Of a stretch of 64,000 bases of DNA, positions 4,183-46,237 are shown one piece after another. A program made the position numbers and the translations under genes. The stretch's first letter is position 1. Every line of letters begins with the position of its first letter. The stretch comes from Sulfurospirillum cavolei (GTDB taxonomy: Bacteria; Campylobacterota; Campylobacteria; Campylobacterales; Sulfurospirillaceae). The notes beneath the pieces were generated by a model. The model searched no databases and had not been told where the DNA came from. It was given only the letters and a program-made list of their open reading frames with translations. The stretch is taken from NCBI RefSeq assembly GCF_001548055.1, contig NZ_AP014724.1, positions 2,418,001-2,482,000 on the forward strand. The letters are read 5' to 3'.

Positions 4183-4231
4183 TTAAGAAAGCGTTAAGAT
4201 TAAATTTTGCCGCATTAACATTTGCTTAACA
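4183..4231 (+). promoter_or_regulatory. Tandem TTAAGA/TTAACA direct repeats, candidate OmpR-family operator
   Basis: Four half-sites lie in the prs/DUF4405 intergenic region: TTAAGA at 4184 and 4194, TTAACA at 4215 and 4226. The last pair has the 11-bp spacing typical of OmpR/PhoB/BasR-family response regulators. The known PmrA/BasR box is two CTTAAG-like half-sites five bases apart. The same TTAACA-N5-TTAACA pair, inside a shared TTTGCTTAACAC, occurs at 34588-34604 before the TonB receptor. The regulator is unknown. Confidence 0.5.
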
Positions 4232-4298
4232 CTTTCATGCCATACTTTCAAAAGAGTTGTTGTAAAACTTTCTCTAATTATCCTGATCGGAGTTATTT

Positions 4299-5126
4299 AT
4301 GATTCGTTTACGCCGTTTGACCTCTTTATGTGTCGCTTTTTCGTTCTTAGCGATGAGTTATACAGGAATTTTGCTTTTTATCGCACCCAAAGGTCGTGTC
4401 GCTTACTGGACGGATTGGCATCTTTTAGGCTTGGATAAAACGCAATACACGAACTTACATGTCAGCTTTATGATTCTTTTTTTAATAGGCTCGGTCGTAC
4501 ATATCTACTTGAACGTACCGGCGTTACTGAGTTACCTTAAAACGAAAGCATCGACATTTTCGTTTTTCAATAAAGAGTTGCTACTGGCATTGGCGTTCAA
4601 TCTTTTCTTTTGGGTCGGAACACTCTATTTTTGGCAACCTTTCGATGCCTTTTTGGACTTTTCCGATCAGCTTAAGAACTCTTGGGAGCAAAAAGCGGAT
4701 TCAAAAGCACCTTACGGTCATGCCGAACTTTCAAGCTTAGAAGAGTTTGCGATGCGTACTAGCACACCGCTTTCTCAGCTGGTGCAAACCTTAACCGACG
4801 CACAGCTTAAAGCCGTCGATCCTTCCAAACGTATTATCGATATCGCACAATCAAACGGCTACTCGCCCGCACAAATGTTCGGCTTGATGGCAAAACAAAA
4901 ACCTGCTTCGTCATCGTTACAAGAAGGCGGCGGATACGGTCGATTAAGCCTTGCAGAGGCTTCCAAACGCCAAGGATTTTCGCTACCGCGTGCTCTTGTT
5001 TTTCTTCGCGAAAAAGGATTTGACGCACGTGAGACATCGACACTCAAAGAGATTTCGGACGCACTCAATACTAAACCTATGATGCTCTTAGAGCAACTTA
5101 AAACGCTAGAAAAGGATTCCCAATGA
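4299..5126 (+). CDS. DUF4405-type membrane protein with C-terminal helical repeats
   Basis: 275 residues. Three hydrophobic helices are visible: ~10-30, ~55-75 (with histidines at YTNLHVSF and VVHIYL) and ~93-112. This matches the DUF4405 cytochrome-b-like pattern, in which paired histidines could bind haem b (known for relatives, inferred here). The remainder is soluble and contains short helical repeats: IIDIAQSNGYSPAQMFGLM and LAEASKRQGFSLPRALVFL followed by TLKEISDALNTKPMMLLEQL. The last repeat resembles the tail of the truncated gene at 1-408. It starts after CGGAG and overlaps the downstream EF-hand gene by 4 bases (ATGA), so the two are likely co-regulated partners. The function is unknown. 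Confidence 0.65.
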   Translation: MIRLRRLTSLCVAFSFLAMSYTGILLFIAPKGRVAYWTDWHLLGLDKTQYTNLHVSFMILFLIGSVVHIYLNVPALLSYLKTKASTFSFFNKELLLALAFNLFFWVGTLYFWQPFDAFLDFSDQLKNSWEQKADSKAPYGHAELSSLEEFAMRTSTPLSQLVQTLTDAQLKAVDPSKRIIDIAQSNGYSPAQMFGLMAKQKPASSSLQEGGGYGRLSLAEASKRQGFSLPRALVFLREKGFDARETSTLKEISDALNTKPMMLLEQLKTLEKDSQ

Positions 5127-5419
5127 AACGTTTTTTATGGCTATGCGCCTTTGCCTCTTTACTCTTAGCCGCCGATACGACGCGAGGACCGATGAGTTTT
5201 GACGATTTCGATACTAACAAAGACGGAACACTTACGCAAGAAGAATTTGATGCGGCAAAAGCGCAACGTATGAGTGCAAGAGCCCAAGCGGGCGGAGGCA
5301 TGAAAAATGCGGCGGATGCTCCCGATTTTGCTTATTTTGATATCAATCACGACGGAAAAGTAACCAAAGACGAGTTCCGTCAAAAGCAGTTGGAACGGCT
5401 TAAAAACAGACGTAATTAA
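5123..5419 (+). CDS. Secreted EF-hand calcium-binding protein
   Basis: 98 residues. It has a signal peptide (MKRFLWLCAFASLLLAADT) and two canonical 12-residue EF-hand loops, DTNKDGTLTQEE and DINHDGKVTKDE, each with D at positions 1, 3 and 5 and E at 12. It should therefore bind Ca2+ in the periplasm. It overlaps the DUF4405 gene by 4 bases, which suggests it is a calcium-responsive or structural partner of that membrane protein; this is inference. A strong bidirectional terminator follows directly. Confidence 0.85.
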   Translation: MKRFLWLCAFASLLLAADTTRGPMSFDDFDTNKDGTLTQEEFDAAKAQRMSARAQAGGGMKNAADAPDFAYFDINHDGKVTKDEFRQKQLERLKNRRN

Positions 5420-32799: not shown

Positions 32800-33567
32800 T
32801 TAGCGTATCGCTTTTTTGAGGCGTTTTACCAGTGCATTGGGCTCTTTTTTGACCATTTTTTTGATGAAAAAGAGTAAAGGTTGATTGCCTTTTTTTTGGA
32901 GAAAAAAGTCGCTTTTTTCCGTTAAAAGTGTCTGTATATCCCATAAAAAAGCTTGATAAGCAGAGCTTTGCATACGATCTAACAGTGCCGTACGCTCTTT
33001 ACATGTCAAAACACCCAAGGCGTTTTGCAAACGATCGATCATCGCCGTATCGAATAAAAAGCGGGAAATTTTAAGTAGCATCGCGATACGTTTAAGTTGC
33101 CGATAGGTTTTTCTAAGCGCGTCGCCTTCATCCTCGAGCAAAGCTTGCACCGCATGTTTTAAACGTAAAGTCTCATGGTAAAGAAGCACTTTAAACACTT
33201 TTTGGGCACTCATGCCGCCCATAAACGTAAAGTCAATCGAAACGTCCGCCAATCTATCGCATTTGGTAAAAACCGTCTGTTCGTCAAAATCATACTCCTC
33301 GGGAAAGCCGAAAAGCTTCACAAAGCGGTTTTTATAGCGCCGATCGTTCGTGACGTCGCGCAGGATATGCAAAGCGGCGTCTTCGCTCAATACCGCAAGC
33401 GTCGCTTCGTCGTCATAACGTACGCCTAAAACACCGAATGTCGCATACGTGTCGCAATAAAATTGATCGATATTTTTTTTATATGGAGTCGAAGTGCTCT
33501 GCAAATAGCCAAGCACTTCATGGGGGTGTTCAATCAGGTATTTTTTTTTCCAAAACGACTTTTTCAC
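32800..33567 (-). CDS. Unknown helical protein (CHAD-like pattern in the second half)
   Basis: 255 residues, no signal peptide or membrane helix. The second half is helical and basic: LRLKHAVQALLEDEGDALRKTYRQLKRIAMLLKISRFLFD is reminiscent of CHAD-domain helices but lacks the clear conserved histidines, so I do not claim the family. The C-terminus is strongly basic. It lies between ppaC (11 bp) and ubiE (62 bp), on the same strand. If it is CHAD-like, polyphosphate binding next to a pyrophosphatase would be of interest. Confidence 0.6.
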   Translation of the reverse strand: MKKSFWKKKYLIEHPHEVLGYLQSTSTPYKKNIDQFYCDTYATFGVLGVRYDDEATLAVLSEDAALHILRDVTNDRRYKNRFVKLFGFPEEYDFDEQTVFTKCDRLADVSIDFTFMGGMSAQKVFKVLLYHETLRLKHAVQALLEDEGDALRKTYRQLKRIAMLLKISRFLFDTAMIDRLQNALGVLTCKERTALLDRMQSSAYQAFLWDIQTLLTEKSDFFLQKKGNQPLLFFIKKMVKKEPNALVKRLKKAIR

Positions 33568-33578
33568 AAAGTACGCTT

Positions 33579-34496
33579 TTAAAACTGTTTTTCCATGACG
33601 GGAATGACCTGTTTTTTACGACTTAAAACGCCCTCAACCCACATTTCGTGGTTCACAAGTTTGGTGTTAAACGCGTTTTCGATTTTGTTTTCGTCGTCGC
33701 TGACAACTAAAAATTGAGAGCCTTCGATCATGATATCGGTTAAAAGGAGCATTACGGTATGGCGATGGCCCTCTTCTTTATAGGTTTTCATATCGGCAAA
33801 AAGTGCCTCTTTCATCTCGTCGAATACGGTTAAATCCACGACTTCAAGTTGACCGATGCCGATTTTATGACCGCCCATATCAAAATCTTTAAAATCACGC
33901 AATAAGAGCGTACGAGGACTTGCCCCTTTGACCGCGGATTTGACTAAAAACATCTCCATTCCAAGTTTTTTGAAATCTTCCACGCCCGCAATATGCGCCA
34001 ACTCTTTTACTGCTTTGGTGTCCGCTTTGGTACATGTGGGCGACTTAAACAAAACCGTATCGCTCAAAATTGCCAGCATCATAGCACCCGCAATATTTTT
34101 CGGGATGTCGATTTTATAATGATCGAACATCTCTTTGACGATCGTATTCGTACAACCCACCGGGCGAATCCAACACTCAAGCGGCGTTGAAGTCGTAATG
34201 TCGCCGAGTTTATGATGATCGACAATGCCTAAAATATTCGTCTCTTTGAGATTGTGCGGTGCTTGCGCAAGATCGGAATAGTCGGTAATGTAAAGGTTGT
34301 CGCCTGAAAAATCGTTCTTTAAAAGAGGTTTTTCAAGTCCGAACGTTTTTAAAATAAACTCCGTCTCGGGGCTGATTTCGCCTTGGCGTGCCGGCGTACA
34401 AGCTTCGCCGAGTTCTGTTTTAAGGTATGAGAGTGAAATCGCCGATACGATCGAATCGGAATCGGGATTGATGTGTCCGCATGCATAGGTTTGCAT
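33579..34496 (-). CDS. ppaC: Manganese-dependent inorganic pyrophosphatase
   Basis: 305 residues from the ATG at 34496 (a TTG one codon earlier is also in frame); AAAGGA lies upstream. It is a family II (DHH) pyrophosphatase: GHINPDSDSIVSAI, DYSD, the DHH motif VDHHKLGD and a C-terminal DHHA2 domain ending in GVLSRKKQVIPVME (the SRKKQ substrate loop). It hydrolyses PPi. It is the first gene of a minus-strand run with the unknown gene, ubiE and xseA. Confidence 0.95.
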   Translation of the reverse strand: MQTYACGHINPDSDSIVSAISLSYLKTELGEACTPARQGEISPETEFILKTFGLEKPLLKNDFSGDNLYITDYSDLAQAPHNLKETNILGIVDHHKLGDITTSTPLECWIRPVGCTNTIVKEMFDHYKIDIPKNIAGAMMLAILSDTVLFKSPTCTKADTKAVKELAHIAGVEDFKKLGMEMFLVKSAVKGASPRTLLLRDFKDFDMGGHKIGIGQLEVVDLTVFDEMKEALFADMKTYKEEGHRHTVMLLLTDIMIEGSQFLVVSDDENKIENAFNTKLVNHEMWVEGVLSRKKQVIPVMEKQF

Positions 34497-34587
34497 CAAA
34501 ATATCCTTTAGTGTTTTTCGTGTAATTATAGCCGATTGTTTCTATTTTTTGAAATCCAATCGCATTATCTCGTAAAGTCCGTTTTGC

Positions 34588-34604
34588 TTAACACATATTT
34601 AACA
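34588..34604 (+). promoter_or_regulatory. TTAACA-N5-TTAACA tandem repeat before the TonB operon
   Basis: TTAACA at 34588-34593 and 34599-34604, 11 bp apart, 45 bp before the receptor ATG. The surrounding TTTGCTTAACAC is identical to the copy at 4223-4232 before the DUF4405/EF-hand operon. This layout suggests a shared OmpR-family response regulator; identity unknown. Confidence 0.5.
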
Positions 34605-34648
34605 CTGGTGTGTGACAATTTATCTTCAGACTACTACAAGGAATATGC

Positions 34649-36751
34649 ATGATTGATAAGAAACGCCTTTACGCGTCCCTCACGCTTTTGCCTCTTCTCG
34701 CCCACGCTGAAACACTTCAGCTTGACACCGTGAGTGTCACCGCCACCAAAGTTGAAACCGAAACGAAAGAGGTTTCCCAATCCATTGCCGTCGTTAACGC
34801 TCAGACCATTGAAGATAAAAACGTCCTTGATGTGAGCAGTGCATTGGAAAACATCCCCGGTGTCAACGTAGAAAGCTCCAGTAACTCTCCAAGTCCAAGA
34901 CTTATTATCCGAGGTGCGGGACTTAAAGCAAATTACGGCGTACGAGAGATTATGGTCATCAAAGACGGCGTTCCGATGACCGACCCCGATTCGTTCACGC
35001 GCTTTGATTATATCGACATGCAAGACGTTCAAAGCATCGAGGTACAAAAAGGTCCCGGTTCTATCAGTGCCGTTAACGCCACGGGCGGCGTTATTCAGCT
35101 CATTACCAAGTCTGTTTTCGAAGAAGACGATAATAGCATCAAAATCGGCGTAGGAAACGAGGGGCAACGCAATCTCAATCTCAAATTGCGTGAAAAAATC
35201 GACGATAACGATTTTGTGTCGATGAATTTTTCCAGACAGTCAAAAGACAATCACTGGCGCGATAACAACGAATTCGACTCAACGCAAATCAGCCTCAAAT
35301 ACGGTCATATTTTCGACGACGATTCAACTTTGCAGGGTGAAATCGCCTATACCGAATCCAACTTACAGCTTCCCGCTTCCATGACCAAAAACGAATTTGA
35401 AGCCTTTAAGAAAACGGGCGAACAACACGATACTTCAAGTCCGTGGCAATACACCGCGCGTAATTCCAAAATTCTCTCGCTCAATACCCAGTACCAAAAG
35501 GAAGTCGGAGATTTAACGTATAAACCTCGCTTTTACGTCAATCGCTGGGAACATTTTCATCCCGTCACCGGTATTATCAACGATGCTGACGAGAACTACG
35601 TCTACGGTACAGATTTGGAAGCCGATTACGCCCATCAACTCTTCAATAAGAATGCCACCTTGGTTTTCGGTGTGACCGCCAAACAAGATCGAAGCGACGA
35701 TGCCAAAAAATACCAATACGCCGATATCGTCACACAAAATGTAATCCTCTACGGTAGACCCGTCACGCAAGTCGTTCAAACACTTTCCAATAGGGAAGGT
35801 AGTTTAGCCAATGTCGAAGACAGTCTTGCAACGTTATACGGTATCTATGCCATGGAAACATTTAGTCCATTCGATCGTACTACCGTAGACATTAGTAGCC
35901 GTGTCGATCGACTAGGATTTGATATTAGCGGCAATGAAATATCGTATTTTGATTATTCAACATCAAGCTATAAAACAGGTGCAGGCGACTATGCTATTAA
36001 TAAAAGCTACACGCTGATGTCCTCCAAACTCGGTGTGACGTATGCGCTCACCGATACGACCAATATTTACAGTTCTATCGCGTTTGCCAATCAAGCACCG
36101 ACGACCAGTGAACTTGGCGATAACGAGGGACTGGATAAAACGCAAAGCGTCAACTATGAAATCGGTTTGAAAACACGAACGGAACAGTTTAGTTACGACG
36201 TTGCGCTTTACCAAAACGACGTGAAAGACGAGATTATTCAAATTAAAGATGCGGGCGGCAATACCATCTACGACAATGCGGGACAGACCCAAAAACGCGG
36301 TTTTGAGTTTTTAGGAATGTATCACGTCAACACGGCGCTTAGTTTTGGTCTCTCTTATGCCTACAGCGATTTTAAATACGTGAGTTTCCAAGAAAAAGTG
36401 GGCGCAACGTTTGTCAATCGAGACGGCAATTATTTACCCTACATCCCCAAACACCAATACGGTTTGGAAGCCAACTACAAAATGGAAAACGGCTTTAAAA
36501 CGCGTATTCAAACCAAATCGTGGGGAAGCTATTACCTCGATAGTGCCAACAGCGACAAATACGAAGGTTACGATTTCGTGACCGACGTGATGTTCGGGTA
36601 TGAGAAAAAAGCACATTTGATTCAACTCAACGTCAACAATATCTTCGATAAACATTACGCGATGCAAGCCGAAAAGAGCGTTTACGGCGTAGAAAGCTAT
36701 AAAGCGGCCGCACCTCGAAACTTTATGGTCAGCTATCGCTATAAATTTTAA
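34649..36751 (+). CDS. TonB-dependent outer-membrane receptor
   Basis: 700 residues. Signal peptide (MIDKKRLYASLTLLPLLAHA), TonB box-like region LDTVSVTATK at ~25-35, plug domain (IPGVNVESSSNSPSPRLIIRGAG; VREIMVIKDGVPMTDPDSF; VQKGPGSISAVNATGGVIQL) and a 22-strand barrel ending in NFMVSYRYKF with a terminal aromatic residue. The substrate is not shown by sequence; the operon partners (FeS-NosL fusion, ExbB, ExbD, TonB) point to a metal or metal chelate. It starts 7 bp before the FeS-NosL gene, so the whole TonB system is one operon. Confidence 0.92.
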   Translation: MIDKKRLYASLTLLPLLAHAETLQLDTVSVTATKVETETKEVSQSIAVVNAQTIEDKNVLDVSSALENIPGVNVESSSNSPSPRLIIRGAGLKANYGVREIMVIKDGVPMTDPDSFTRFDYIDMQDVQSIEVQKGPGSISAVNATGGVIQLITKSVFEEDDNSIKIGVGNEGQRNLNLKLREKIDDNDFVSMNFSRQSKDNHWRDNNEFDSTQISLKYGHIFDDDSTLQGEIAYTESNLQLPASMTKNEFEAFKKTGEQHDTSSPWQYTARNSKILSLNTQYQKEVGDLTYKPRFYVNRWEHFHPVTGIINDADENYVYGTDLEADYAHQLFNKNATLVFGVTAKQDRSDDAKKYQYADIVTQNVILYGRPVTQVVQTLSNREGSLANVEDSLATLYGIYAMETFSPFDRTTVDISSRVDRLGFDISGNEISYFDYSTSSYKTGAGDYAINKSYTLMSSKLGVTYALTDTTNIYSSIAFANQAPTTSELGDNEGLDKTQSVNYEIGLKTRTEQFSYDVALYQNDVKDEIIQIKDAGGNTIYDNAGQTQKRGFEFLGMYHVNTALSFGLSYAYSDFKYVSFQEKVGATFVNRDGNYLPYIPKHQYGLEANYKMENGFKTRIQTKSWGSYYLDSANSDKYEGYDFVTDVMFGYEKKAHLIQLNVNNIFDKHYAMQAEKSVYGVESYKAAAPRNFMVSYRYKF

Positions 36752-36757
36752 GGACGA

Positions 36758-38581
36758 ATGATGGTGACGCAACAAAAAAGAGATGCCGACGACCTTTTTT
36801 CCTATAAGACCACGGCATTTTTCTTTAAAAACACGTATTTTTTGAAAGCTCTTCGTATCGTCGTTCTCGCATTGTTCGTCTATGCGATTTTTTTAGGCTA
36901 TGTCCAACCGGACAAAGCGCAAAACACCTTCACGACGACGCTCTTTTGGTCGTTGTTTTGGCCGCTTTTTATGGTCGTGACGCTTTCGACGTTCGGCAGA
37001 CTCTTTTGCGGTATCTGCCCGCATGCGTTTGTGGGTAAATACCTCACAAAAATCGGTCTTAAAAAAACACCGCCCAAATGGCTTAAAAAGCCGCTTATCG
37101 GCGTATTGCTTCTTTTTTTGGGATGGTGGAGCGTTTATTATATCTATCCCAGCGCCTACAAGACGCCATTGAGCAGTGCCCTCTTTTTTACGGTTCTGAG
37201 CGTTTTGGCGTTGAGTTTCTTTTTTATCTTCAAAGAGATGAGTTACTGTAAATACATTTGTCCTATCGGAACCATGACACGCACGTTTTCAAAAATCTCG
37301 TTTACGTGGCTTGGCACTTATGCGCAAAGCTGTCAATCGTGCAAAACGTTTGATTGCACCAAGGCGTGTTCGTACAATCTCAAGCCTTTTAGCTTCACCG
37401 CCAAAGCATCGATGAGTGATTGTACGTTGTGTATGGATTGTGCGCAGACGTGCGAATCGGTTCATTTTAAACTTCAAAAGCCTTCTTCGTCTCTTTTTAA
37501 AAAATTTCAAACGTCCCGTGCCGAAGTCTGGGCGATTTTACTGATTACTGCCGCCATTACGATTACGATGAGTTTTCATCACGCACTTTCCCAAGTCGCG
37601 ATTAGCGATGCTTATTTTTGGGTGCGCGCGGGCAAATGGCTTCAAAATACCGTCGGTATCGAAGGTATCGATTACATCGGCATGAGTGCGTTGATATCGG
37701 CGCTTATAAGCACCCTAGGCTTTGCCGCAGGCGGTATTTTCGTGGCGTCAAAAATCTTACATGTAAGATTTTCATCTGCTTTTGATACGTTGTGTTATGC
37801 GTTTATTCCTATCTTTATCATCGGCGGATTGTCGCATACCTACGAATTTTTCTTTGTACACCATTACAGCACTATTCTTAACGGTTTCATCCAAGGATTT
37901 CATCTGCCTTTCGAAGCCGTCAAGCCGCTCGCAACCAAAAAAGATGCATGGTTAAAAATCTTCGGTATTTTAAACTATGTCGCCGTTTTATGGGCACTTC
38001 TCATTATGGCAAAACGCGTCAGTTTCTTTAACGCATCGCGTGCCGCTCGTATTGCCGCGTTCGCGTTTGCGTCGCTTTTGATTTTTTTCTATTTGGGACT
38101 CAATCTCTACCGTTCTTACGCGTTTGCGACGTACGGTATTAAACAAGGCGGACATGCGCACAACGGCGCTGCCAAAACGCTCTTTGCCAGCGTACCCAAA
38201 GACAAAGCGCTCTTGCTTCAAGGAAGTAACGAGGGCGTGGTTTGCGGAATGCCTTTGGACAAACACTTCAAAACCAACCACAGTGCCACCTTGGAGGGAA
38301 ACGTCAGACAGTACTGCTCCTTGCACTGCCTTACCGAAGATTTGATGATTAAGAAGCTACCGCTTCAAAATATTCACGTCGTCGATGTGAGCACACTTTC
38401 GTTTATTGACGCGCACAATGCCTTTTACGTGGTAGGAAGCCGCGTCAAAGGAACGATGAGCGAAACCAGTCAATATGCTTTTGCCAAAGAAGAGGATGCC
38501 CAAGCGTTCCGCACTAAAAACGGCGGAGAAATCATGTCGTTTGAGCACGCGCTCAAGATTGCTATGAAGGATTTTGAATGA
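36758..38581 (+). CDS. Membrane FeS (NosR/CcoG-like) protein fused to NosL-like domain
   Basis: 607 residues. Membrane helices flank the cysteine motifs GRLFCGICPHAF and CKYICPIGTM and two ferredoxin-type clusters, CQSCKTFDCTKAC and CTLCMDCAQTC, as in NosR, NapH and CcoG. More helices follow to ~460. The C-terminal ~119 residues (489-607) look like NosL: VVCGMPL with C496-G-M and an AFYVVGSRVKGTMS...YAFAKEEDAQAF...GGEIMSFEHA tail. NosL delivers copper to nitrous oxide reductase; no nos genes are here. I infer an electron-transfer and metal-handling partner for the TonB system, perhaps reducing and trapping copper or iron at the inner membrane. Confidence 0.75.
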   Translation: MMVTQQKRDADDLFSYKTTAFFFKNTYFLKALRIVVLALFVYAIFLGYVQPDKAQNTFTTTLFWSLFWPLFMVVTLSTFGRLFCGICPHAFVGKYLTKIGLKKTPPKWLKKPLIGVLLLFLGWWSVYYIYPSAYKTPLSSALFFTVLSVLALSFFFIFKEMSYCKYICPIGTMTRTFSKISFTWLGTYAQSCQSCKTFDCTKACSYNLKPFSFTAKASMSDCTLCMDCAQTCESVHFKLQKPSSSLFKKFQTSRAEVWAILLITAAITITMSFHHALSQVAISDAYFWVRAGKWLQNTVGIEGIDYIGMSALISALISTLGFAAGGIFVASKILHVRFSSAFDTLCYAFIPIFIIGGLSHTYEFFFVHHYSTILNGFIQGFHLPFEAVKPLATKKDAWLKIFGILNYVAVLWALLIMAKRVSFFNASRAARIAAFAFASLLIFFYLGLNLYRSYAFATYGIKQGGHAHNGAAKTLFASVPKDKALLLQGSNEGVVCGMPLDKHFKTNHSATLEGNVRQYCSLHCLTEDLMIKKLPLQNIHVVDVSTLSFIDAHNAFYVVGSRVKGTMSETSQYAFAKEEDAQAFRTKNGGEIMSFEHALKIAMKDFE

Positions 38582-39021
38582 TATCTATCGAACTCATGCA
38601 ACATTTGGTCGACTACGGCGTAATCGGGCTTTTGGGCGTGATGAGCTTTTTAACGCTCTTTTTTTGGATTGAACGGTTGTTGTTTTTTAGAACTTTACAT
38701 GTAAGAAATTACGCTTGTAAGGAAAAACTAGAGATGGATGTGAGCAATCACATCCATATTCTCTCCACCTTTGGCTCAAACGCTCCTTACATCGGGCTTT
38801 TAGGAACGGTATGCGGCATTATCATTACGTTTTACGCCATGGGCCAAAGCGGACAAATCGACGTCAAAACGATTATGAGCTCCTTAGCCCTAGCGCTTAA
38901 AGCTACCGCCATGGGACTCGTGGTTGCCATCCCCGCCATCTTTTTTTACAACCATCTGATCCGTAAAATCGAAAAGATTCTTTTGGCGTGGGACATCGAG
39001 CAGAAAAAAGAGACCGTATGA
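38578..39021 (+). CDS. exbB: ExbB-type TonB energizer (MotA/TolQ/ExbB family)
   Basis: 147 residues, three hydrophobic helices. The pore segment GSNAPYIGLLGTVCGIIITFYAMG and ALALKATAMGLVVAIPAIFFYNHL are the family signature. It forms the proton channel that powers TonB with ExbD. It overlaps the FeS-NosL gene by 4 bases and exbD by 4 bases. Confidence 0.92.
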   Translation: MISIELMQHLVDYGVIGLLGVMSFLTLFFWIERLLFFRTLHVRNYACKEKLEMDVSNHIHILSTFGSNAPYIGLLGTVCGIIITFYAMGQSGQIDVKTIMSSLALALKATAMGLVVAIPAIFFYNHLIRKIEKILLAWDIEQKKETV

Positions 39022-39395
39022 AGCTACGCCGTTTCGAGTCGATTAACGTTGTACCGTTTATCGATATTATGCTGGTTTTATTGGTCATCGTCCTCACCAC
39101 CGCGACCTTTGTCGCAAGAGGGATGATTCCCGTCGATTTGGCGCAAGCCTCCTCATCCAATGCCCTACAACCGCAAAAAGAGTTAGTGATTACCGTACAA
39201 AAAGACGGGAGTTATTTTTTTGACGATCAACCCGTCGATACGACGCAAATCGATGCGCGTTTAGCATCCTACCCGTCGCAAACAAACGTGCTGATTAACG
39301 CTGATAAACAAAGTCTTTTCGAACCGTTTGTTTTTTTGATGGATCGTCTCAAAGAGCATGGGTTTGACCATATAGGAATTGTGACAAAACGATGA
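39018..39395 (+). CDS. exbD: ExbD-type TonB energizer
   Basis: 125 residues from the ATG at 39018, which overlaps the exbB stop (ATGA). One N-terminal helix with the proton-carrying aspartate in NVVPFIDIMLVLLVIVLTT (D16), then a periplasmic domain. It partners ExbB and TonB. It overlaps tonB by 4 bases. Confidence 0.92.
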   Translation: MKLRRFESINVVPFIDIMLVLLVIVLTTATFVARGMIPVDLAQASSSNALQPQKELVITVQKDGSYFFDDQPVDTTQIDARLASYPSQTNVLINADKQSLFEPFVFLMDRLKEHGFDHIGIVTKR

Positions 39396-40060
39396 AACGC
39401 TATTTAAATGCTTTGAGTATCACTCTGCTCATTTATACGTGTATCGGTTATGTTTTACTGTATCAGCGCACCCTCCAACCACTGAGCGCTCCTGTGTCAG
39501 AAACGACGTATATAAGCGTCTTTATTCAAAAAACGCCCCCAAAACAAGAAGCGCCCAGCGTCGCTCCGACGCCTCCAGAACCTATAAAACAGGACGTTCC
39601 AAAACCAAAAACAATTGCCAAAGCGACAACGCCCAAAATCAAGCAACCAACGGCGATTCCGTTACCAAAAGAACCCTCTATCGACGAAACAGTCGCAAAA
39701 AACGACCTCAAAGAAGTACCGCAAAAAGAATCAATCCAAAACGAAACAGCCGTATCTTCTCCGCCGAAAGGAAAAAATGATGCGATGCAAGCGTACATCA
39801 AACGCGTGGTGGCACGCATCAACGAGCATAAAATTTATCCGAAAATTGCGCAAAAAAGTCATATTGAAGGAAACGTTATCGTCGAATTTACGATTTCGCC
39901 TACGGGAGAGTTGCTCTCACTGACCATTATCGAAGGAAAGAAAATTTTCTATAAAGCGACGGAAGAAGCCTTTTATAAAAGCTTCCCCTGTCCGCTTGAA
40001 GAGCGATGGCTCACGAGCGACACGACGTTTCGCATCGCTCTGAATTATACGCTACTTTAA
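39392..40060 (+). CDS. tonB: TonB energy-transducing protein
   Basis: 222 residues: an N-terminal anchor (~7-25), a Pro/Lys/Glu-rich periplasmic spacer (~45-125) and a C-terminal TonB domain (YIKRVVARINEHKIYPKIAQKSHIEGNVIVEFTISPTGEL...). The tail contacts the receptor TonB box and passes on energy from ExbB/ExbD. It ends convergent with the next gene, the two stops overlapping by a few bases. Confidence 0.92.
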   Translation: MKRYLNALSITLLIYTCIGYVLLYQRTLQPLSAPVSETTYISVFIQKTPPKQEAPSVAPTPPEPIKQDVPKPKTIAKATTPKIKQPTAIPLPKEPSIDETVAKNDLKEVPQKESIQNETAVSSPPKGKNDAMQAYIKRVVARINEHKIYPKIAQKSHIEGNVIVEFTISPTGELLSLTIIEGKKIFYKATEEAFYKSFPCPLEERWLTSDTTFRIALNYTLL

Positions 40061-40500
40061 TGCCCTTTTTTTCCGTGCTCTTTATCTTTGGATTTTTTAC
40101 CGTAATCGTCGTCATCGTCAAAACGCATATCGTGGCCGCCTTTAAGCGCTTTAAATTCGGAAGACCCCGGTTTAATACCGAGACTTTGCGCCATAGCTCC
40201 CCAGCCTTGTTTGTGATGCTTGTGATACTCTTGCAACACGTAGTCGGGCGATCTGCCGCTAAGTTCTGCCAAGCGCAGCACCATATATGCGTCCGCCGGT
40301 GCTCCGACGCTTTTTAAAATAACACCCAGTTGCGCTTCGGGCATTCTAAAACGCGACAACAAATCGGAGCGGTATCGGACAGGATCGGAATCGGATCGAA
40401 GATTGAGATTCATCATCCAATCAAAATCGGCCGCAACCAGCGAGGATACCCCTAGTAAAGCAATCACCGTCATACGTATCAAAGATCGTTTTAACTGCAT
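40057..40500 (-). CDS. Secreted protein with ADFDW domain and acidic/basic low-complexity tail
   Basis: 147 residues from the ATG at 40500, chosen because AAAGGAGAAAAA precedes it; a start at 40569 would lie inside the upstream gene. Signal peptide to ~25, then ADFDWMMNLNLRSDSDPVRYRSDLLSRF and GAPADAYMVLRLAELSGRSPDYVLQEY. The tail is rich in D, K, H and G (DDDDDYGKKSKDKEHGKKGH). The domain is shared with the next gene upstream, so they are tandem paralogues. The family and function are unknown; the tail could bind metal ions. Confidence 0.7.
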   Translation of the reverse strand: MQLKRSLIRMTVIALLGVSSLVAADFDWMMNLNLRSDSDPVRYRSDLLSRFRMPEAQLGVILKSVGAPADAYMVLRLAELSGRSPDYVLQEYHKHHKQGWGAMAQSLGIKPGSSEFKALKGGHDMRFDDDDDYGKKSKDKEHGKKGH

Positions 40501-40513
40501 TTTTTCTCCTTTA

Positions 40514-41131
40514 TTAACGTCTATCGTATCTATCGTCGTCTTTTCTATCTCGGTCGTGTCGTGGGTCATGCGACTCTCTTCGAGGCTGTTCTACACGCCC
40601 TTGATCGTGTCGTTGAGGCTCGACGTGCTCACGACGCGGTTCGTATTCTCGATGCGGCTGTTCGATATACACGCGCGTCGGCGGAACATACCGTCGAGGC
40701 TCGCTGTAATGGTATTCTTCGTAACGAACATGCGGGCGTTCACGATAGATAATATCGTGACCGTGGCGCAACGACGTAAACATCGGTGCGTAAACGGGGA
40801 TGCCTAGAAAAAGTGCAAAATCATCCCAATGGGCAAATCGACGTTCGCGATAAATGCGCAACACGTATTCAGGCGGTCGATTGGAAAGTTCCGCCAATCG
40901 AAAAATCATATAGGCGTCTGCGGGTTCATAAACGTTGTCCATGATGGAAATAACCTCTACTTCATTGTAATGAAATCGGTCCATCAAGCCGTAACGGTAT
41001 GCATACGGGTCGGAATGCGAACGTAAATTCAAACTGACCATCCAATCAAAATCGGCCGCTTTAAGCGTTGATGCCGAAGGTATTGCCAACAAAAGTGTCG
41101 CAATAAAAACCAAATTCGGTGCTATTTTCAT
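40514..41131 (-). CDS. Secreted ADFDW-domain protein with Arg/Glu/His-rich tail
   Basis: 205 residues with a signal peptide (MKIAPNLVFIATLLLAIPSAS). It shares with the next gene the domain ADFDWMVSLNLRSHSDPYAYRYGLMDRF...EPADAYMIFRLAELSNRPPEYVLRIY. The C-terminal ~85 residues are low-complexity (many R, E, H, D, P). The ATG follows GGGAGAC. It is upstream of its paralogue with a 13-base gap, one operon, both periplasmic. Divergent promoters toward the HemN-like gene lie in 41132-41320. Confidence 0.7.
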   Translation of the reverse strand: MKIAPNLVFIATLLLAIPSASTLKAADFDWMVSLNLRSHSDPYAYRYGLMDRFHYNEVEVISIMDNVYEPADAYMIFRLAELSNRPPEYVLRIYRERRFAHWDDFALFLGIPVYAPMFTSLRHGHDIIYRERPHVRYEEYHYSEPRRYVPPTRVYIEQPHREYEPRREHVEPQRHDQGRVEQPRRESHDPRHDRDRKDDDRYDRR

Positions 41132-41320
41132 ATAAAGTCTCCCTTTTTTATTGCAATTAAAGCATTATTCTCTATAAAAGTGAATTTATCGTGAATCTTA
41201 CTCCCCCTCTTTTTCTCACGTTTGAGCGTTATAATCTTGCGTATGAATTAAAAATTTACATAAAAATTACTTTTGTTACTTATAATAGCGGCAAAAGACG
41301 GGCTTTAGAAAGGAAATTTG

Positions 41321-42586
41321 ATGTTACGCCATCCCTCAAAAATCATTACGAGTGCAACCAGTTATTTTATGCACCAATACACCAAACACTATTTAAACGT
41401 CGACAACCCTTCCAAAGGATTGCCGTTGCCTCCTGAAAACAAACCTTATTTGCTCTACGTTCACGTACCGTTTTGTTCGATGTTTTGCCCTTATTGCTCG
41501 TTCAACAAATTTACCTATACGAAAGAAGCGGCAAGCGTTTACTTTCAACACTTGCGTCAAGAGATTTTACATGTCAAATCGTTAGGGTACGATTTTGATT
41601 ATTTGGTGATCGGCGGAGGTACGCCGCTTATCGATGAAGATGAACTGATCAAAACGATCGAACTGATTAAAACGCAGTTCAATATTCAACACGTCTCGTG
41701 CGAAAGCGATCCTAACCATATCAAGCCGAAAACCGTTTTACGCTTAGACGGACTCATCGATCGCCTCTCTATCGGCGTACAAACCTTTGACGACACGCTT
41801 CTGAAAAAACTCGGTCGTTTTGAAAAATTCGGTTCCGGCGAAGAGGTGTACCGTAAAATCGAATCGATGCTCGGCATTTTACCGATCACGAGCGTCGATT
41901 TGATCTTTAATTTCCCAGAGCAAAGCGAAGCCGGACTTATTCGAGATTTGGAACTTCTTAAAAAACTCTCTCCGGAACAAACGAGCGTTTATCCGTTAAT
42001 GACCTCATCGTTGGTCAAAAACAGCGTGCGTAAAAGCCTCGGGGAATTTAGTATGGCGCATGAAATGGCTTTCTTTAAAACGATTAAAAAACAGCTCAAA
42101 ACCGCCTATCCTTCACGTCACGGTTGGTCGTTTTCCAAAGAACAAGACACGATCATCGACGAATACATCATCGATCACGAAGAGTACGTCGGCGTTGGTT
42201 CGGGTTCGTTTAGCTTTTTAAAAGATACGCTTTACTTAAACGAGTTTGCGCTCGACCAATACTCCGCACATATTCAAAACCGCAACAGTGCCGTCATTAA
42301 AGAAAAAACTTTTCCTCAAAATTCGCAAATGTATTACCGCCTTATGGTCGATCTTTTCAACGGCAAACTTTCCAAGAGAAAATTTCACCGTATGTTCGGC
42401 GTCGAAATCGAAGAGGCGTTGGGCAAAGAGCTGATGTTGCTCCGTTTGGCAAAAACCGTCGTCGAAGACGAACATACGATCAAAACGACGGAATTCGGCG
42501 ACTATCTCTTTTTGGTCTTAATGAAAGAGTTTTACATGGGTATGGATCGTATCCGCAACAATGCGCGAAAGCACCTTAGCCTTTAA
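41321..42586 (+). CDS. HemN/HemW-like coproporphyrinogen III oxidase family radical SAM protein
   Basis: 421 residues from the ATG after AAAGGAAATTTG (the TTG one codon earlier is also open). Radical SAM CxxxCxxC in VPFCSMFCPYCSFNKF, with GGGTPL and SIGVQTFDD as in HemN/HemW. Family members act in haem synthesis, haem insertion or anaerobic haem breakdown; which one is unclear. Two TATAAT boxes lie upstream (one at 41281-41286). It ends convergent with the Cache-domain gene, overlapping by 11 bases. Confidence 0.8.
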   Translation: MLRHPSKIITSATSYFMHQYTKHYLNVDNPSKGLPLPPENKPYLLYVHVPFCSMFCPYCSFNKFTYTKEAASVYFQHLRQEILHVKSLGYDFDYLVIGGGTPLIDEDELIKTIELIKTQFNIQHVSCESDPNHIKPKTVLRLDGLIDRLSIGVQTFDDTLLKKLGRFEKFGSGEEVYRKIESMLGILPITSVDLIFNFPEQSEAGLIRDLELLKKLSPEQTSVYPLMTSSLVKNSVRKSLGEFSMAHEMAFFKTIKKQLKTAYPSRHGWSFSKEQDTIIDEYIIDHEEYVGVGSGSFSFLKDTLYLNEFALDQYSAHIQNRNSAVIKEKTFPQNSQMYYRLMVDLFNGKLSKRKFHRMFGVEIEEALGKELMLLRLAKTVVEDEHTIKTTEFGDYLFLVLMKEFYMGMDRIRNNARKHLSL

Positions 42587-43427
42587 ATGACGCCAAGGAG
42601 AGGCTTTCACTCCACGTTAAGACGAAAAAGCCGACATATTCACCGTTAATATCGACTATCGGGGTGTAAAGCACGTAACTGTCTCCCATTTTCATATAGC
42701 CCGTGCCTTGAAAATTGGCACTTTTGATAAAATGAAGCCCGTTGGTCGATTGATTGACGATCGTGTAATTATCAAGCCTAAGATTTGGAGCATACTCCGA
42801 AGCATTGGCGATGTCGGCGTATTCGTTTTTCATCAAAACGTACAGCTCCACGCCGTCTTTTTTGAAATAACGACTCATATCTTTAAAATCCACAACCGTT
42901 TCGATTGTCCCGACATACTCCTCTTGGTTAAATACCGGAGCAATCGCACGCATAAACATCCCGTTACGCCCGATCTCAATCCCTTTGATGGAGTGTTTGG
43001 TTGCTTTCACTTTTTCTAGCGCATGGCGAAAAGCACTTAAATCGTCGTTACTTTCATTGCGATAGTCCCATAAGCGCATAAAACTTTTGAACTCTTTGGT
43101 GTGCAAGTGTAAGCGTGCGTTTTCAAACACGCCCGAGAGAGCCATCGTATTTTTAATGTCGAGCAAATAATCCAAACACTGCGTTCGATCTTGGTTTTGA
43201 AGGCAACCGATCACGTGAGGGCTTTTGGCTAAAATAACCGAGCTCGCCAATGAGACGTGCGTCGTCTCTTCGATCTTGTTGTGTAACGTCAAAAGCAGCG
43301 CGTCCATCTGTTTTTTAAGGGTTTCGTCCTCTTCAAACGAAATCGATTTGTTGTATAAAAAAAGCAAGCAAAGCCCAAAAAAGAGCATTACTAATGCGCT
43401 GAGGAAAAAGCGTTTTTCTTTCATCAT
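42576..43427 (-). CDS. Membrane-anchored Cache-domain sensor protein
   Basis: 283 residues: one N-terminal membrane helix (~8-26) and a large periplasmic double-Cache region (ETVVDFKDMSRYFKKDGVELYVLMKNEY; GDSYVLYTPIVDINGEYVGFFVLTW). There is no cytoplasmic output domain, so it cannot signal alone. Its ATG overlaps the histidine kinase stop, so it is probably an accessory sensor for that kinase. It is last in the psrABC-RR-HK operon, which suggests it senses a respiratory sulfur compound or product (inference). Confidence 0.75.
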   Translation of the reverse strand: MMKEKRFFLSALVMLFFGLCLLFLYNKSISFEEDETLKKQMDALLLTLHNKIEETTHVSLASSVILAKSPHVIGCLQNQDRTQCLDYLLDIKNTMALSGVFENARLHLHTKEFKSFMRLWDYRNESNDDLSAFRHALEKVKATKHSIKGIEIGRNGMFMRAIAPVFNQEEYVGTIETVVDFKDMSRYFKKDGVELYVLMKNEYADIANASEYAPNLRLDNYTIVNQSTNGLHFIKSANFQGTGYMKMGDSYVLYTPIVDINGEYVGFFVLTWSESLSLASFKG

Positions 43428-44605
43428 GTCAAAGCCTTTTGTTCGTTTTCAACTTTATCGAGCCATTTTTGGTGATCGAGCTTAAAAACGTACGTAAAGC
43501 GCGATCCTTGGTTCTCGTACGATTCAATGTCGATATCGACGTCGTTTTTATTGCATATATTTTGAACGATATTGAGTCCTAAGCCAAAGCCGCCTTGCAC
43601 GCCGTCTTCCCTTTCAAAACGCTCAAAGACTTTATAGAGGTCTTTAATGCCTTGCCCGTGATCGATAAAGCTCAAAATACAACTGCTTTCGTCTTTACGG
43701 TGAAGGTATATTTCGACAATGCCTTGAAAAAACGAATACTTAATCGCATTGGAGAGCGTATTATCAAGAATGCGTTGCAGTTCGACCTTACTGATAAAAA
43801 TCATCATCGCCTCTTCGATCTCGTACTTTAAAACGATGGATTTCGAGCGTGCAATATCTTCGAAAAACGCGATGCGTAACCCGAGGTATTCCGAAAGGTT
43901 GATCGGCTCTTTCGCATACACCACTTTTTTGTGTTTAATATAATATTCCACGTCTTCGTATGTCATTTGCATCTGTTTCGTTGCCGCTTTAATGCGTTGG
44001 AGGTGTTTGGAAGAGGTTACGTAATTGGAGAGCAACTCGACGTTAATGTTAATGACGCCCAAAGGCGTTTTGAGCTCATGCATCGAATCGTTAAAAAAGT
44101 CGTTCATATAGCGTTGCATTCGCTGATACGGATAGATGCTCGAATGCACGAAGACGTTGCTTAGAAGGTAAATCAAAAACAAAACGATAAAAAAAAGCAT
44201 CGTCGTCACGAAAATAATCTTGGCATAATTGAGCTTGGTTTGAACCACTACGAAAAAAAGCCCTCTATCGTCGGTTTGTACCGCTTTTTGATAGTACAAA
44301 AACGGATACACCACGCGTATCTTAAATTGCACGTCCTCTAACGTCGCTTCGATGCCTCGGTACAAAAGCGTATGCGTCTCGTCGTAAATATTGAGGTGAA
44401 ACCGTACGCTACGCGGAATATCAAACTCTTCTTTGGCAAAAATGCTTTTTTCGTGCGTTGAGACCCATTCGAAAAGCTCTTGCGAAGCTTTGTATTTTTC
44501 TTCCGTCACGGTACTTTGAATCGCAAAAAAACTCGGAACGCTAAAAAGTGCCATGACGATCAGCGTATAAAGCCAAACCGAACGAAACGGATTAAGCGTC
44601 AACAT
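43424..44605 (-). CDS. Sensor histidine kinase of the Psr operon
   Basis: 393 residues. Two membrane helices (~10-30 and ~130-150) bracket a ~100-residue periplasmic domain. The H-box is SMHELKTPLG with His176; an N box (LSNAIKYSF), a G1-like SFIDHGQGI and GGFGLGLNIVQNI follow. It overlaps the response regulator gene (14 bases) and the Cache gene (4 bases), so it is translated together with both. The HK likely phosphorylates the neighbouring regulator. Confidence 0.9.
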   Translation of the reverse strand: MLTLNPFRSVWLYTLIVMALFSVPSFFAIQSTVTEEKYKASQELFEWVSTHEKSIFAKEEFDIPRSVRFHLNIYDETHTLLYRGIEATLEDVQFKIRVVYPFLYYQKAVQTDDRGLFFVVVQTKLNYAKIIFVTTMLFFIVLFLIYLLSNVFVHSSIYPYQRMQRYMNDFFNDSMHELKTPLGVININVELLSNYVTSSKHLQRIKAATKQMQMTYEDVEYYIKHKKVVYAKEPINLSEYLGLRIAFFEDIARSKSIVLKYEIEEAMMIFISKVELQRILDNTLSNAIKYSFFQGIVEIYLHRKDESSCILSFIDHGQGIKDLYKVFERFEREDGVQGGFGLGLNIVQNICNKNDVDIDIESYENQGSRFTYVFKLDHQKWLDKVENEQKALT

Positions 44606-45260
44606 CGATTTTATACCCCAAACCGCGCGAGGATTTGATGAATGCTTCGACGCCTACTTTGAGTCTGATCTTGCGAATGTACATTCGAATGTCGGCATAA
44701 CTGATCTCTTTGCCTTCCCAAACGTTTTCGCGCAGGGTCTCGATATCGCAGAACGTATTTTTACGTCGAATTAAAAAACGCACCAACTCTTGTTCTTTGG
44801 AACTTAAAATAATCGTTTGATCGTCTTTCTTGATTTCGCCCGTTTCGAAATTGAAACAAAGACCGCATGCCAGCTTAAATACCCCTTCGTTTCCGGTTTG
44901 ATAGTGCTTTTTAATCAGCTCTTTAACACGAAGCTCTAACTCTTTGAGCTCAAAAGGTTTTTTGAGATAATCGTTACAGCCAAGCTCATAGCCGATTGCG
45001 ATATTGTCGATATCGACCAAAGAGGTAATGATAATAATCGGCGTGGTAATCTTGGCTTCTTTGATGTATTTGATCAGTTCGTGACCGTTGAGCTTAGGAA
45101 CTTTCACGTCCAACAAAAACAGATAATAGGTTTTTTGCATAATCGCGTCCAAAGCACTCTCTCCGTCGAAAAAGGCATCGACTTCATAGCCCAAAAACTC
45201 CAAATACTCTTTAATGCTTTCGTTGTAATTGTAGTCGTCTTCGAGCAATAAAAGTTTCAT
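44592..45260 (-). CDS. OmpR-family response regulator of the Psr operon
   Basis: 222 residues from the ATG at 45260; a start at 45443 would be inside psrC. Receiver domain with acidic pair EDD at 7-9 and phosphoacceptor D51 in YLFLLDVKVPK, then a winged-helix DNA-binding domain (LRENVWEGKEISYADIRMYIRKIRLKVG). It lies 8 bp after psrC in the same operon. OmpR-family proteins bind 11-bp direct repeats; one exists upstream of the second Psr operon at 55943-55964. Confidence 0.92.
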   Translation of the reverse strand: MKLLLLEDDYNYNESIKEYLEFLGYEVDAFFDGESALDAIMQKTYYLFLLDVKVPKLNGHELIKYIKEAKITTPIIIITSLVDIDNIAIGYELGCNDYLKKPFELKELELRVKELIKKHYQTGNEGVFKLACGLCFNFETGEIKKDDQTIILSSKEQELVRFLIRRKNTFCDIETLRENVWEGKEISYADIRMYIRKIRLKVGVEAFIKSSRGLGYKIDVDA

Positions 45261-45268
45261 GATCGTCC

Positions 45269-46237
45269 TTATCCAAGATAGATTTGTCCGGCGTAAATAA
45301 TGTAATAACGTAGCAATAAAACACCTAAAAGCACCGCCGTTGCGTTGGTTAAAATATACCTGACCCGATAGACGTGGCTTCGTAACGCCAAAATAACCGT
45401 CGCAAGCGGCAATAACAACCCGATGCCGATGACTCCGAGCCAAAAGACCAACGCCAATCCGCCGTGGCTCAGTGCCGCTTTCGCCACCGACGAAACTTCG
45501 CCGCCGCCGTAAAAAAGACCGACGAAAAAGATACCCAAAAGCGGCAATTCGGTCATAATAACCCGCAAATCCAGCACCAAAAGGTACTTGATGCTCTCCG
45601 TGTTGATCGTACTTTTAAAAAACACCAATCCGATCAAAATATTCACCGCAATCCCCGAAGAGATGCTCGAAGTCAAAAAAACGATCGGCAAAACAGGACT
45701 GTTCCACAGCGGAATCGCATACAACGCCGAGAGTAAAAAGCCCGTATAAGAGCCTACGCACAATGCCGCCGCCATTAAAAAATACTCGATCGTTTTTGCA
45801 TACGAGTGCAAACTCTTGACCCATTCGATAAAGCTTCCCAAAGGCAAAAGCCATGTGTATTTCACAATCGTCCGTTCAAACACCAAAAGCGTAAAAACCA
45901 ACACGATCGGCGTGTAAATCAGTAAAAAAAGAACGCCCAAGCTCATAACCGAGAGAGGATTAAAACGAATCAAAAGCCAATAAAACGACAACGGACGCCC
46001 TAAATCCGCGACCAATAAAAAAAGTCCCGCTAAAATCGATACGGGAGCGACCAAAGTTCCAGACTTAATCATCGCGTCCCAAATCGAAGAGTTACTACGT
46101 TCGTGTCGATTCCATTTGACCAGCAGCGCAACGATAATCGAACCAGCGCTGATACCGGCTAAAAAGAGATAAACGGCAATCGCCCACGACCAGTGAATCA
46201 CTTCGTACTGCGCGGTACTTCCCCACATCGGGCTCAT
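45269..46237 (-). CDS. psrC: PsrC/NrfD-type quinone-interacting membrane subunit (copy 1)
   Basis: 322 residues with eight or more hydrophobic helices, NrfD family. Start segment WGSTAQYEVIHWSWAIAVYLFLAGISAGSII matches copy 2 closely. It takes electrons from menaquinol and passes them to the FeS subunit. It overlaps psrB by 4 bases. It differs from the copy-2 subunit through much of the central region, so the two modules are not recent duplicates. Confidence 0.9.
   Translation of the reverse strand: MSPMWGSTAQYEVIHWSWAIAVYLFLAGISAGSIIVALLVKWNRHERSNSSIWDAMIKSGTLVAPVSILAGLFLLVADLGRPLSFYWLLIRFNPLSVMSLGVLFLLIYTPIVLVFTLLVFERTIVKYTWLLPLGSFIEWVKSLHSYAKTIEYFLMAAALCVGSYTGFLLSALYAIPLWNSPVLPIVFLTSSISSGIAVNILIGLVFFKSTINTESIKYLLVLDLRVIMTELPLLGIFFVGLFYGGGEVSSVAKAALSHGGLALVFWLGVIGIGLLLPLATVILALRSHVYRVRYILTNATAVLLGVLLLRYYIIYAGQIYLG

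Follow-up and report, generated by a model that had tools for sequence, protein, structure and literature searches.

A five-gene TonB operon with a polyferredoxin-NosL fusion in Sulfurospirillum cavolei: a putative reductive copper-acquisition system

The genome of Sulfurospirillum cavolei is a single contig of 2.70 Mb (NZ_AP014724.1), and the window analysed here is the 64,000-nucleotide stretch at its positions 2418001-2482000. The window contains a five-gene operon (34649-40060) which encodes, in order, a TonB-dependent receptor, a membrane iron-sulfur (FeS) protein fused to a domain of the copper chaperone NosL, ExbB, ExbD and TonB. This operon is interpreted as a dedicated reductive copper-acquisition system, with a probability of roughly two in three.

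The operon and its fusion protein

The genes of the operon and the parts of the fusion protein are as follows.

34649..36751, plus strand: TonB-dependent receptor, 700 aa (Pfam PF00593/PF07715)
36758..38581, plus strand: membrane FeS protein fused to NosL, 607 aa (Pfam, family alignment, AlphaFold2 model)
36758..37507, plus strand: four-helix polyferredoxin module of the fusion, residues 1-250, with 12 invariant Cys (36/36) and Fer4_5
37499..38152, plus strand: five-helix membrane domain, residues 248-465, with conserved H275 and H360; Yip1-like in some relatives
38153..38167, plus strand: His-rich, putatively periplasmic tail HAHNG, residues 466-470, kept across variants
38216..38545, plus strand: NosL domain, residues 487-596, with C496-G-M498, C520, H523, C524 and M567
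38578..39021, plus strand: ExbB (TIGR02805 exbB2, 165.7 bits against a cut-off of 135.35)
39018..39395, plus strand: ExbD (PF02472, 98.6 bits)
39392..40060, plus strand: TonB, 222 aa, with a Pro/Lys-rich linker (PF03544, 42.6 bits)

The genes are closely packed, as was claimed by an initial annotation which described them as overlapping or lying within 7 bp of each other: the receptor and fusion genes are separated by 6 bp (9 bp if a second ATG is used), and the remaining three junctions are 4-bp ATGA overlaps. Relatives of the fusion align to this second ATG, at 36761, and not to the one at 36758, and the start of ExbD is read as the ATG at 39018, while the list of open reading frames gives a GTG further upstream. 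All five genes have Pfam matches above cut-off, and the TonB-ExbB-ExbD system is complete, since each of its components passes its own Pfam cut-off. The same gene order is found in genomes G146 and G228 and at loci L043, L044 and L045, and the FeS-NosL fusion is found also at L014/L049, L016/L051, L043 and L044; the recurrence of gene order and fusion in relatives argues that neither is a sequencing or reading-frame artefact. The nearest named relatives holding all five genes are metagenome-assembled genomes of Sulfurospirillaceae.

The identification of the C-terminal domain as NosL-like, also made in the initial annotation, was borne out by both sequence and fold, although a failure to match had been named in advance as the result that would count against it. 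The domain matches NosL (PF05573) with 66.4 bits against a cut-off of 24 (E 4e-18), and in the AlphaFold2 model of the fusion, which has a mean predicted local distance difference test score (pLDDT) of 82.6, the C-terminus superposes on the solved NosL structure 7og7 with a Z score of 11.0 and a root-mean-square deviation of 2.6 over 102 aligned residues; Foldseek gives an E-value of 2.4e-4 for the NosL fold. The Cu(I)-binding CXM motif is kept as C496-G-M498, and a second Met, M567, lies in a GxM motif aligned with that of solved NosL. No signal-peptidase II cysteine for a lipid anchor is found, and the domain comes after a transmembrane helix, so that it is a NosL domain and not a classical NosL lipoprotein. 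NosL binds Cu(I) with attomolar affinity and does not bind Cu(II) (PMC6530538), which is in keeping with a fusion between a putative reductase and this chaperone.

The N-terminal module matches Fer4_5 with 40.7 bits against a cut-off of 22, and twelve cysteines are invariant in all 36 family members: Cys84, 87, 164, 168, 192, 195, 200, 204, 222, 225, 228 and 232. Eight of these form the two 4Fe-4S motifs (C192/195/200/204 and C222/225/228/232). H275 and H360 of the five-helix domain are kept in 34/36 members and H466 in 31/33; H466 begins the His tail, which directly follows the last helix whether or not a NosL domain is present, and which reads HNHGAS, HANHGGG or HMNHKK in relatives. Nine helices are predicted in the fusion, and the loops that follow helices 2, 6 and 8 are rich in Lys/Arg; this positive-inside pattern would put the FeS clusters on the cytoplasmic side of the membrane and NosL on the periplasmic side.

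The five-helix domain has no convincing fold relative when either the whole model or the domain alone is searched, the best Z score of 5.7 being helical background, and this outcome of the model-based search should not be taken as evidence of a new fold. The domain matches Pfam Yip1 in some relatives, and has a pLDDT of 91.6 when folded alone. A weak overlap with the helices of heme-copper oxidases (Z 5.0) was rejected because it disappeared once the domain was folded alone. Distant homologues of the fusion on haloarchaeal plasmids have uninformative neighbour genes.

The receptor carries the family motif W300-x-H302-x-H304-P-V-T-G, in which the Trp and both His, the residues tested for invariance, are invariant in 14/14 sequences and the remainder is read off the window sequence. 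In the copper receptor CrtA, an invariant His has been proposed to act as a filter for copper chelates (PMC12914433).

A direct-repeat operator and its targets

The upstream regions of receptor genes in distant genomes have in common a direct repeat, TTAACAC-N4-TTAACACT, which usually lies 45-75 bp before the start and is kept in front of 24 of the 26 receptor genes that were listed from related loci. In the window it has the following form.

34588..34606, plus strand: direct-repeat operator TTAACACATATTTAACACT, with an 11-bp period, 61 bp before the receptor start
34599..34626, plus strand: promoter-like TTAACA-16-TATCTT from a consensus scan, weak on its own; the second repeat overlaps the -35-like position

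Save for the repeat at the -35 position, scans for terminators and promoters did no better than shuffled sequences, and there are no Rfam elements within 33000-42000.

The motif was learned solely from receptor promoters, without the use of nosZ or NosL promoters, and genomes were then searched for the exact pattern TTAACAY-N4-TTAACA. Exact copies proved rare, with 45 sites in 15 genomes and 75 in 30 further genomes, for a total of 120 in 45, compared to 21 sites for a reversed control pattern across all 45. FeS operons are preceded by 12 of the 120 sites. A further 26 lie less than 300 bp upstream of a nosZ match (11 sites) or a NosL match (15 sites), where about 0.03 would be expected under uniform placement and the control gives 0/21, a comparison whose probability is nominal because many of the genomes are related. 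The operator has the orientation of the gene in 12/12 FeS operons and in 14/15 NosL cases. A PCuAC gene in genome G127 is also preceded by a site, and response regulator-kinase pairs are among the other targets. In the source genome the operator occurs before a tandem NosL at 61348 (one mismatch), at nosZ (20.2 bits), and before the gene of a second receptor (898939), for which the TonB-copper model TIGR01778 scores best in NCBIfam, with 190 bits against a cut-off of 472. Taken together, these distributions suggest that the operator, putatively of the OmpR type, marks a copper regulon across Campylobacterota.

The candidate regulator comes from the two-component pairs with a short kinase that lie beside a receptor, ExbBD-TonB, NosL or the operator in six genomes (G057, G053, G240, G224, G127 and G134); in G057 a response regulator-kinase pair, the operator, ExbB-ExbD-TonB and a tandem NosL share one cluster. 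The best match in the source genome to these operator-adjacent response regulators, at 55% identity, is encoded at 2612586-2613245, and it is this protein that may regulate the operon. The two-component system in the window (43424-45443) was rejected for this role, having 35% identity to the operator-adjacent group and no operator nearby. Together with a dCache_3 sensor protein it occupies 42576-45443, a region which is syntenic with the operon in three congeners and is probably not the source of its regulator.

Several further loci associated with the operator were observed. The window has a second copy.

4215..4234, plus strand: second operator copy, preceding a DUF4405 protein and an EF-hand protein (4299-5419)

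The DUF4405 product is a membrane protein, and the operator precedes the same gene pair in three congeners (L081, L093, L094). The gene of the second operator-linked receptor (L126:3974-7488) converges on those of MsrP and of a small membrane protein, likely MsrQ. At L127:4610-7216, L139, L078, L079 and L075 the operator is followed by a bd-like oxidase that ends in a cytochrome c domain and could be copper-sparing. A near-match precedes a multiheme cytochrome operon resembling the sulfite reductase MccA, a heme-copper enzyme, at L124:1691-3912, L134:2777-5004 and L141:6229-8463.

Distribution and exchange of C-terminal domains

In a survey of 298 genomes of the class, the FeS module (counted at more than 300 bits) is present in 31 and nosZ above cut-off in 86. 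The initial annotation had reported that no nos genes are seen, which holds within the window and fails for the genome: nosZ of the clade-II type occurs there twice (876 and 859 bits), and four other genes give six further matches to the NosL domain. Its suggestion that recurrence of the gene set without nosZ be sought met with a positive answer: genome G146, of the same genus, has the complete five-gene operon including the fusion and no nosZ, and nosZ is absent from 13 of the 31 carriers of the FeS module. Of the carriers without nosZ, five (G146, G134, G127, G287 and G116) were checked for a cbb3 oxidase, and all have one, which may be another copper client in these genomes.

The pairing of receptor and FeS module is widely kept, and the cluster often, though not in every case, includes ExbB-ExbD and TonB. 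The FeS module varies at its C-terminus: in a tree of 35 rows this end consists of the tail only in 18, NosL in 5, DUF4198 in 10 and NosL plus DUF4198 in 2, a distribution that requires at least nine changes of state, and NosL-bearing and NosL-free members are intermixed in the clade of the window protein itself.

Many operons of the DUF4198 type are larger, and add a DsbD_2-type membrane protein, a second NapH-like ferredoxin and often a resistance-nodulation-division pump, as well as a 2-hydroxyacyl-CoA-dehydratase-like protein with its BadF-type ATPase, which matches activators. The dehydratase-like protein has its best match (1.6e-62) to the proteins 6eno/7yyl, which we take to be double-cubane cluster proteins, and its score of 345.4 bits for the NCBIfam model NF040772 'double_cubane' is just under the cut-off of 350. 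Such uptake operons, combining a double-cubane protein with TonB-dependent import, were observed at L052-L068 (for example L057:4171-16440), and the set is present also on a Sulfurovum mangrovi plasmid (L182), where it is annotated merely as 4Fe-4S and dehydratase proteins. No description tying double-cubane proteins to TonB uptake was found in the open-access literature, and operons of this kind are apparently undescribed; to our knowledge the physiological substrates of double-cubane proteins remain largely open.

Immediately beyond the operon, on the minus strand at 40057-41131, two genes lie side by side whose products, 170 and 205 aa long, are related exported proteins. Both contain the motif DFDWMxxLNLRSxSDP, neither is matched by Pfam or NCBIfam, and the pair stays beside the operon in two congeners.

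Interpretation and rival explanations

What the sequence analysis establishes is the gene set, the identity of the NosL domain, the shared operator and the recurrence without nosZ; copper is well supported as the substrate metal. We infer Cu(II) reduction and its direction, the electron path, the chelated ligand, induction by copper limitation and the identity of the regulator. In the proposed mechanism, the receptor, powered by its own TonB-ExbB-ExbD, would import complexed copper, probably Cu(II) bound by a small chelator, to the periplasm. Electrons would enter the fusion at its cytoplasm-facing FeS clusters and cross the five-helix domain to the periplasmic face, where copper would be reduced to Cu(I) and released from the chelator. 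The His-rich tail and the attached NosL domain would then retain the Cu(I) and pass it to periplasmic copper enzymes such as nitrous oxide reductase and cbb3 oxidase, with expression set by the OmpR-type direct-repeat operator that is common to other copper genes.

The closest system in function would be CrtA-CrpH of Bordetella, which consists of a receptor for chelated copper and a putative membrane copper reductase, is induced by copper starvation, and has ExbBD-TonB in some of its loci (PMC12914433, PMC13038864). As in Bordetella pertussis, a TonB receptor gene is followed by a gene for an inner-membrane, putatively periplasmic-acting copper reductase, in a system that would serve copper respiratory enzymes; however, CrpH is a PepSY_TM heme protein, while its counterpart in the window is an FeS polyferredoxin with NosL, in which Pfam finds no PepSY match. 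The window receptor also probably belongs to another group, nearer to YncD/PqqU than to CrtA, and the regulator family probably differs. The cupric reductase CcoG (FixG/RdxA) resembles the fusion in being a membrane protein that carries two 4Fe-4S motifs and ends in a periplasmic domain (PMC7558416), but that domain is Ig-like in CcoG; in the fusion no Ig-like domain is matched by Pfam, NosL stands in its place, and five helices and the His tail are additional. Escherichia coli YccM is a distant match to fusion residues 145-245. The initial annotation called the FeS module NosR-like, which is apt as a resemblance, since NosR/NapH polyferredoxins share the CX2-3CP motifs and two 4Fe-4S motifs and give weak NCBIfam matches at residues 121-241, but does not extend to membership, the scores being 24.5 against a cut-off of 1000 for NosR and 22.2 against 213 for NapH/MauN, with no match to the FMN domain of NosR. 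The chaperone NosL itself is alike in sequence, fold, CXM motif and second Met, and differs in being a lipoprotein, where the window domain is predicted to form the periplasmic end of a membrane protein with nine helices. NosA/OprC (TIGR01778) would share TonB-dependent outer-membrane copper import with the window receptor, which that model does not match, unlike the genome's second operator-linked receptor, which resembles it. The lack of a PepSY_TM partner and of the CcoG Ig domain, and a receptor nearer to YncD/PqqU than to TIGR01778, therefore suggest an operon that works like a receptor-plus-copper-reductase importer outside any described family; a TonB system linked to NosL and FeS in this way was found nowhere in the open-access literature.

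Several observations weigh against the copper-acquisition reading. The nearest solved relatives of the receptor are YncD/PqqU, receptors for pyrroloquinoline quinone (PQQ), followed by siderophore receptors, the YncD match being 2.1e-34 while the CrtA structure 9rvq ranks lower at 2.9e-12, with its best stretch at the barrel end (residues 544-697); TIGR01778 is not among the receptor's NCBIfam matches at E <= 0.001. The NosL domain is lacking from 28 of the 35 FeS modules, and is therefore not essential to the core function, and operator sites also precede genes without a known copper link. In 10 of 11 nosZ cases (G061, G195, G206, G218, G220, G224, G228, G247, G263 and G271) operator and gene are on opposite strands, which leads to the prediction that the regulatory sign at nosZ may differ from that at receptors and NosL genes. 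Finally, the FeS module may serve several metals, because one solved member of the DUF4198 family, which adjoins TonB receptors, bound nickel (PMC12537917), and in Caulobacter DUF4198 sits in a proposed iron-reduction operon (PMC11870441).

These observations bear unequally on the alternatives. If the operon were an accessory of the nitrous oxide reductase pathway, with a NosA-like receptor and a NosR/NosL-like protein supplying copper to NosZ only, the two nosZ genes, the operator at nosZ and the enrichment of nosZ among carriers (18/31 against 68/267 in other genomes, Fisher p 0.0005, a nominal value since carriers are related) would follow; the 13 carriers without nosZ, among them G146 with its full operon, the other nosL-type genes of the genome, the mostly reversed operator at nosZ and a receptor that is not of the NosA type make this explanation rather unlikely. 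Supply to nitrous oxide reductase is nevertheless a plausible use of the copper, not the only one, because the genome has nosZ and the operator is common to nosZ and NosL genes. Import of iron or nickel/cobalt chelates, with the FeS protein reducing Fe(III) siderophores and NosL as a general metal binder, would suit a receptor closest to siderophore-type and PqqU models and the DUF4198 proteins of sister operons, but leaves the operator at NosL, nosZ and PCuAC genes and the retained copper ligands of NosL to be accounted for, and is distinctly improbable. The initial annotation proposed uptake of copper or iron chelates; its metal reading stands, with copper much favoured over iron on account of the shared operator. 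There is very little to recommend import of an organic cofactor (PQQ or a quinone) with reduction by the FeS protein: the receptor's best solved relative is indeed YncD/PqqU, but PQQ import was dropped because the match to the PqqU model is only at superfamily level (130 bits against a cut-off of 1200), and NosL and the copper operator would have no role. Equally slight is the chance that periplasmic copper is reduced and sequestered for tolerance and not acquired, given that a dedicated receptor with TonB-ExbBD points to import, even though CcoG, a cupric reductase of a related kind, has an effect on copper tolerance as well (PMC7558416).

Gram-negative copper acquisition is poorly known: the copper receptors described so far are few, and it was only in 2026 that a membrane copper reductase was proposed to act with one, in Bordetella; the operon gives a second, unrelated type of putative reductase, wired to a Cu(I) chaperone. 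The operator would mark a copper regulon that includes nosZ, a sink for nitrous oxide, and it yields a list of candidate copper genes. More tentatively, and less likely than not, the operon may be the simplest member of a new family of Campylobacterota reductive copper importers in which the FeS module has exchangeable periplasmic capture domains (the His tail alone, NosL, DUF4198 or both), and in whose large members the double-cubane protein and its ATPase would feed ATP-boosted electrons of very low potential to strip metal from chelates whose stability is beyond the reach of ordinary reductases; these large variants point to a possible role for double-cubane proteins.

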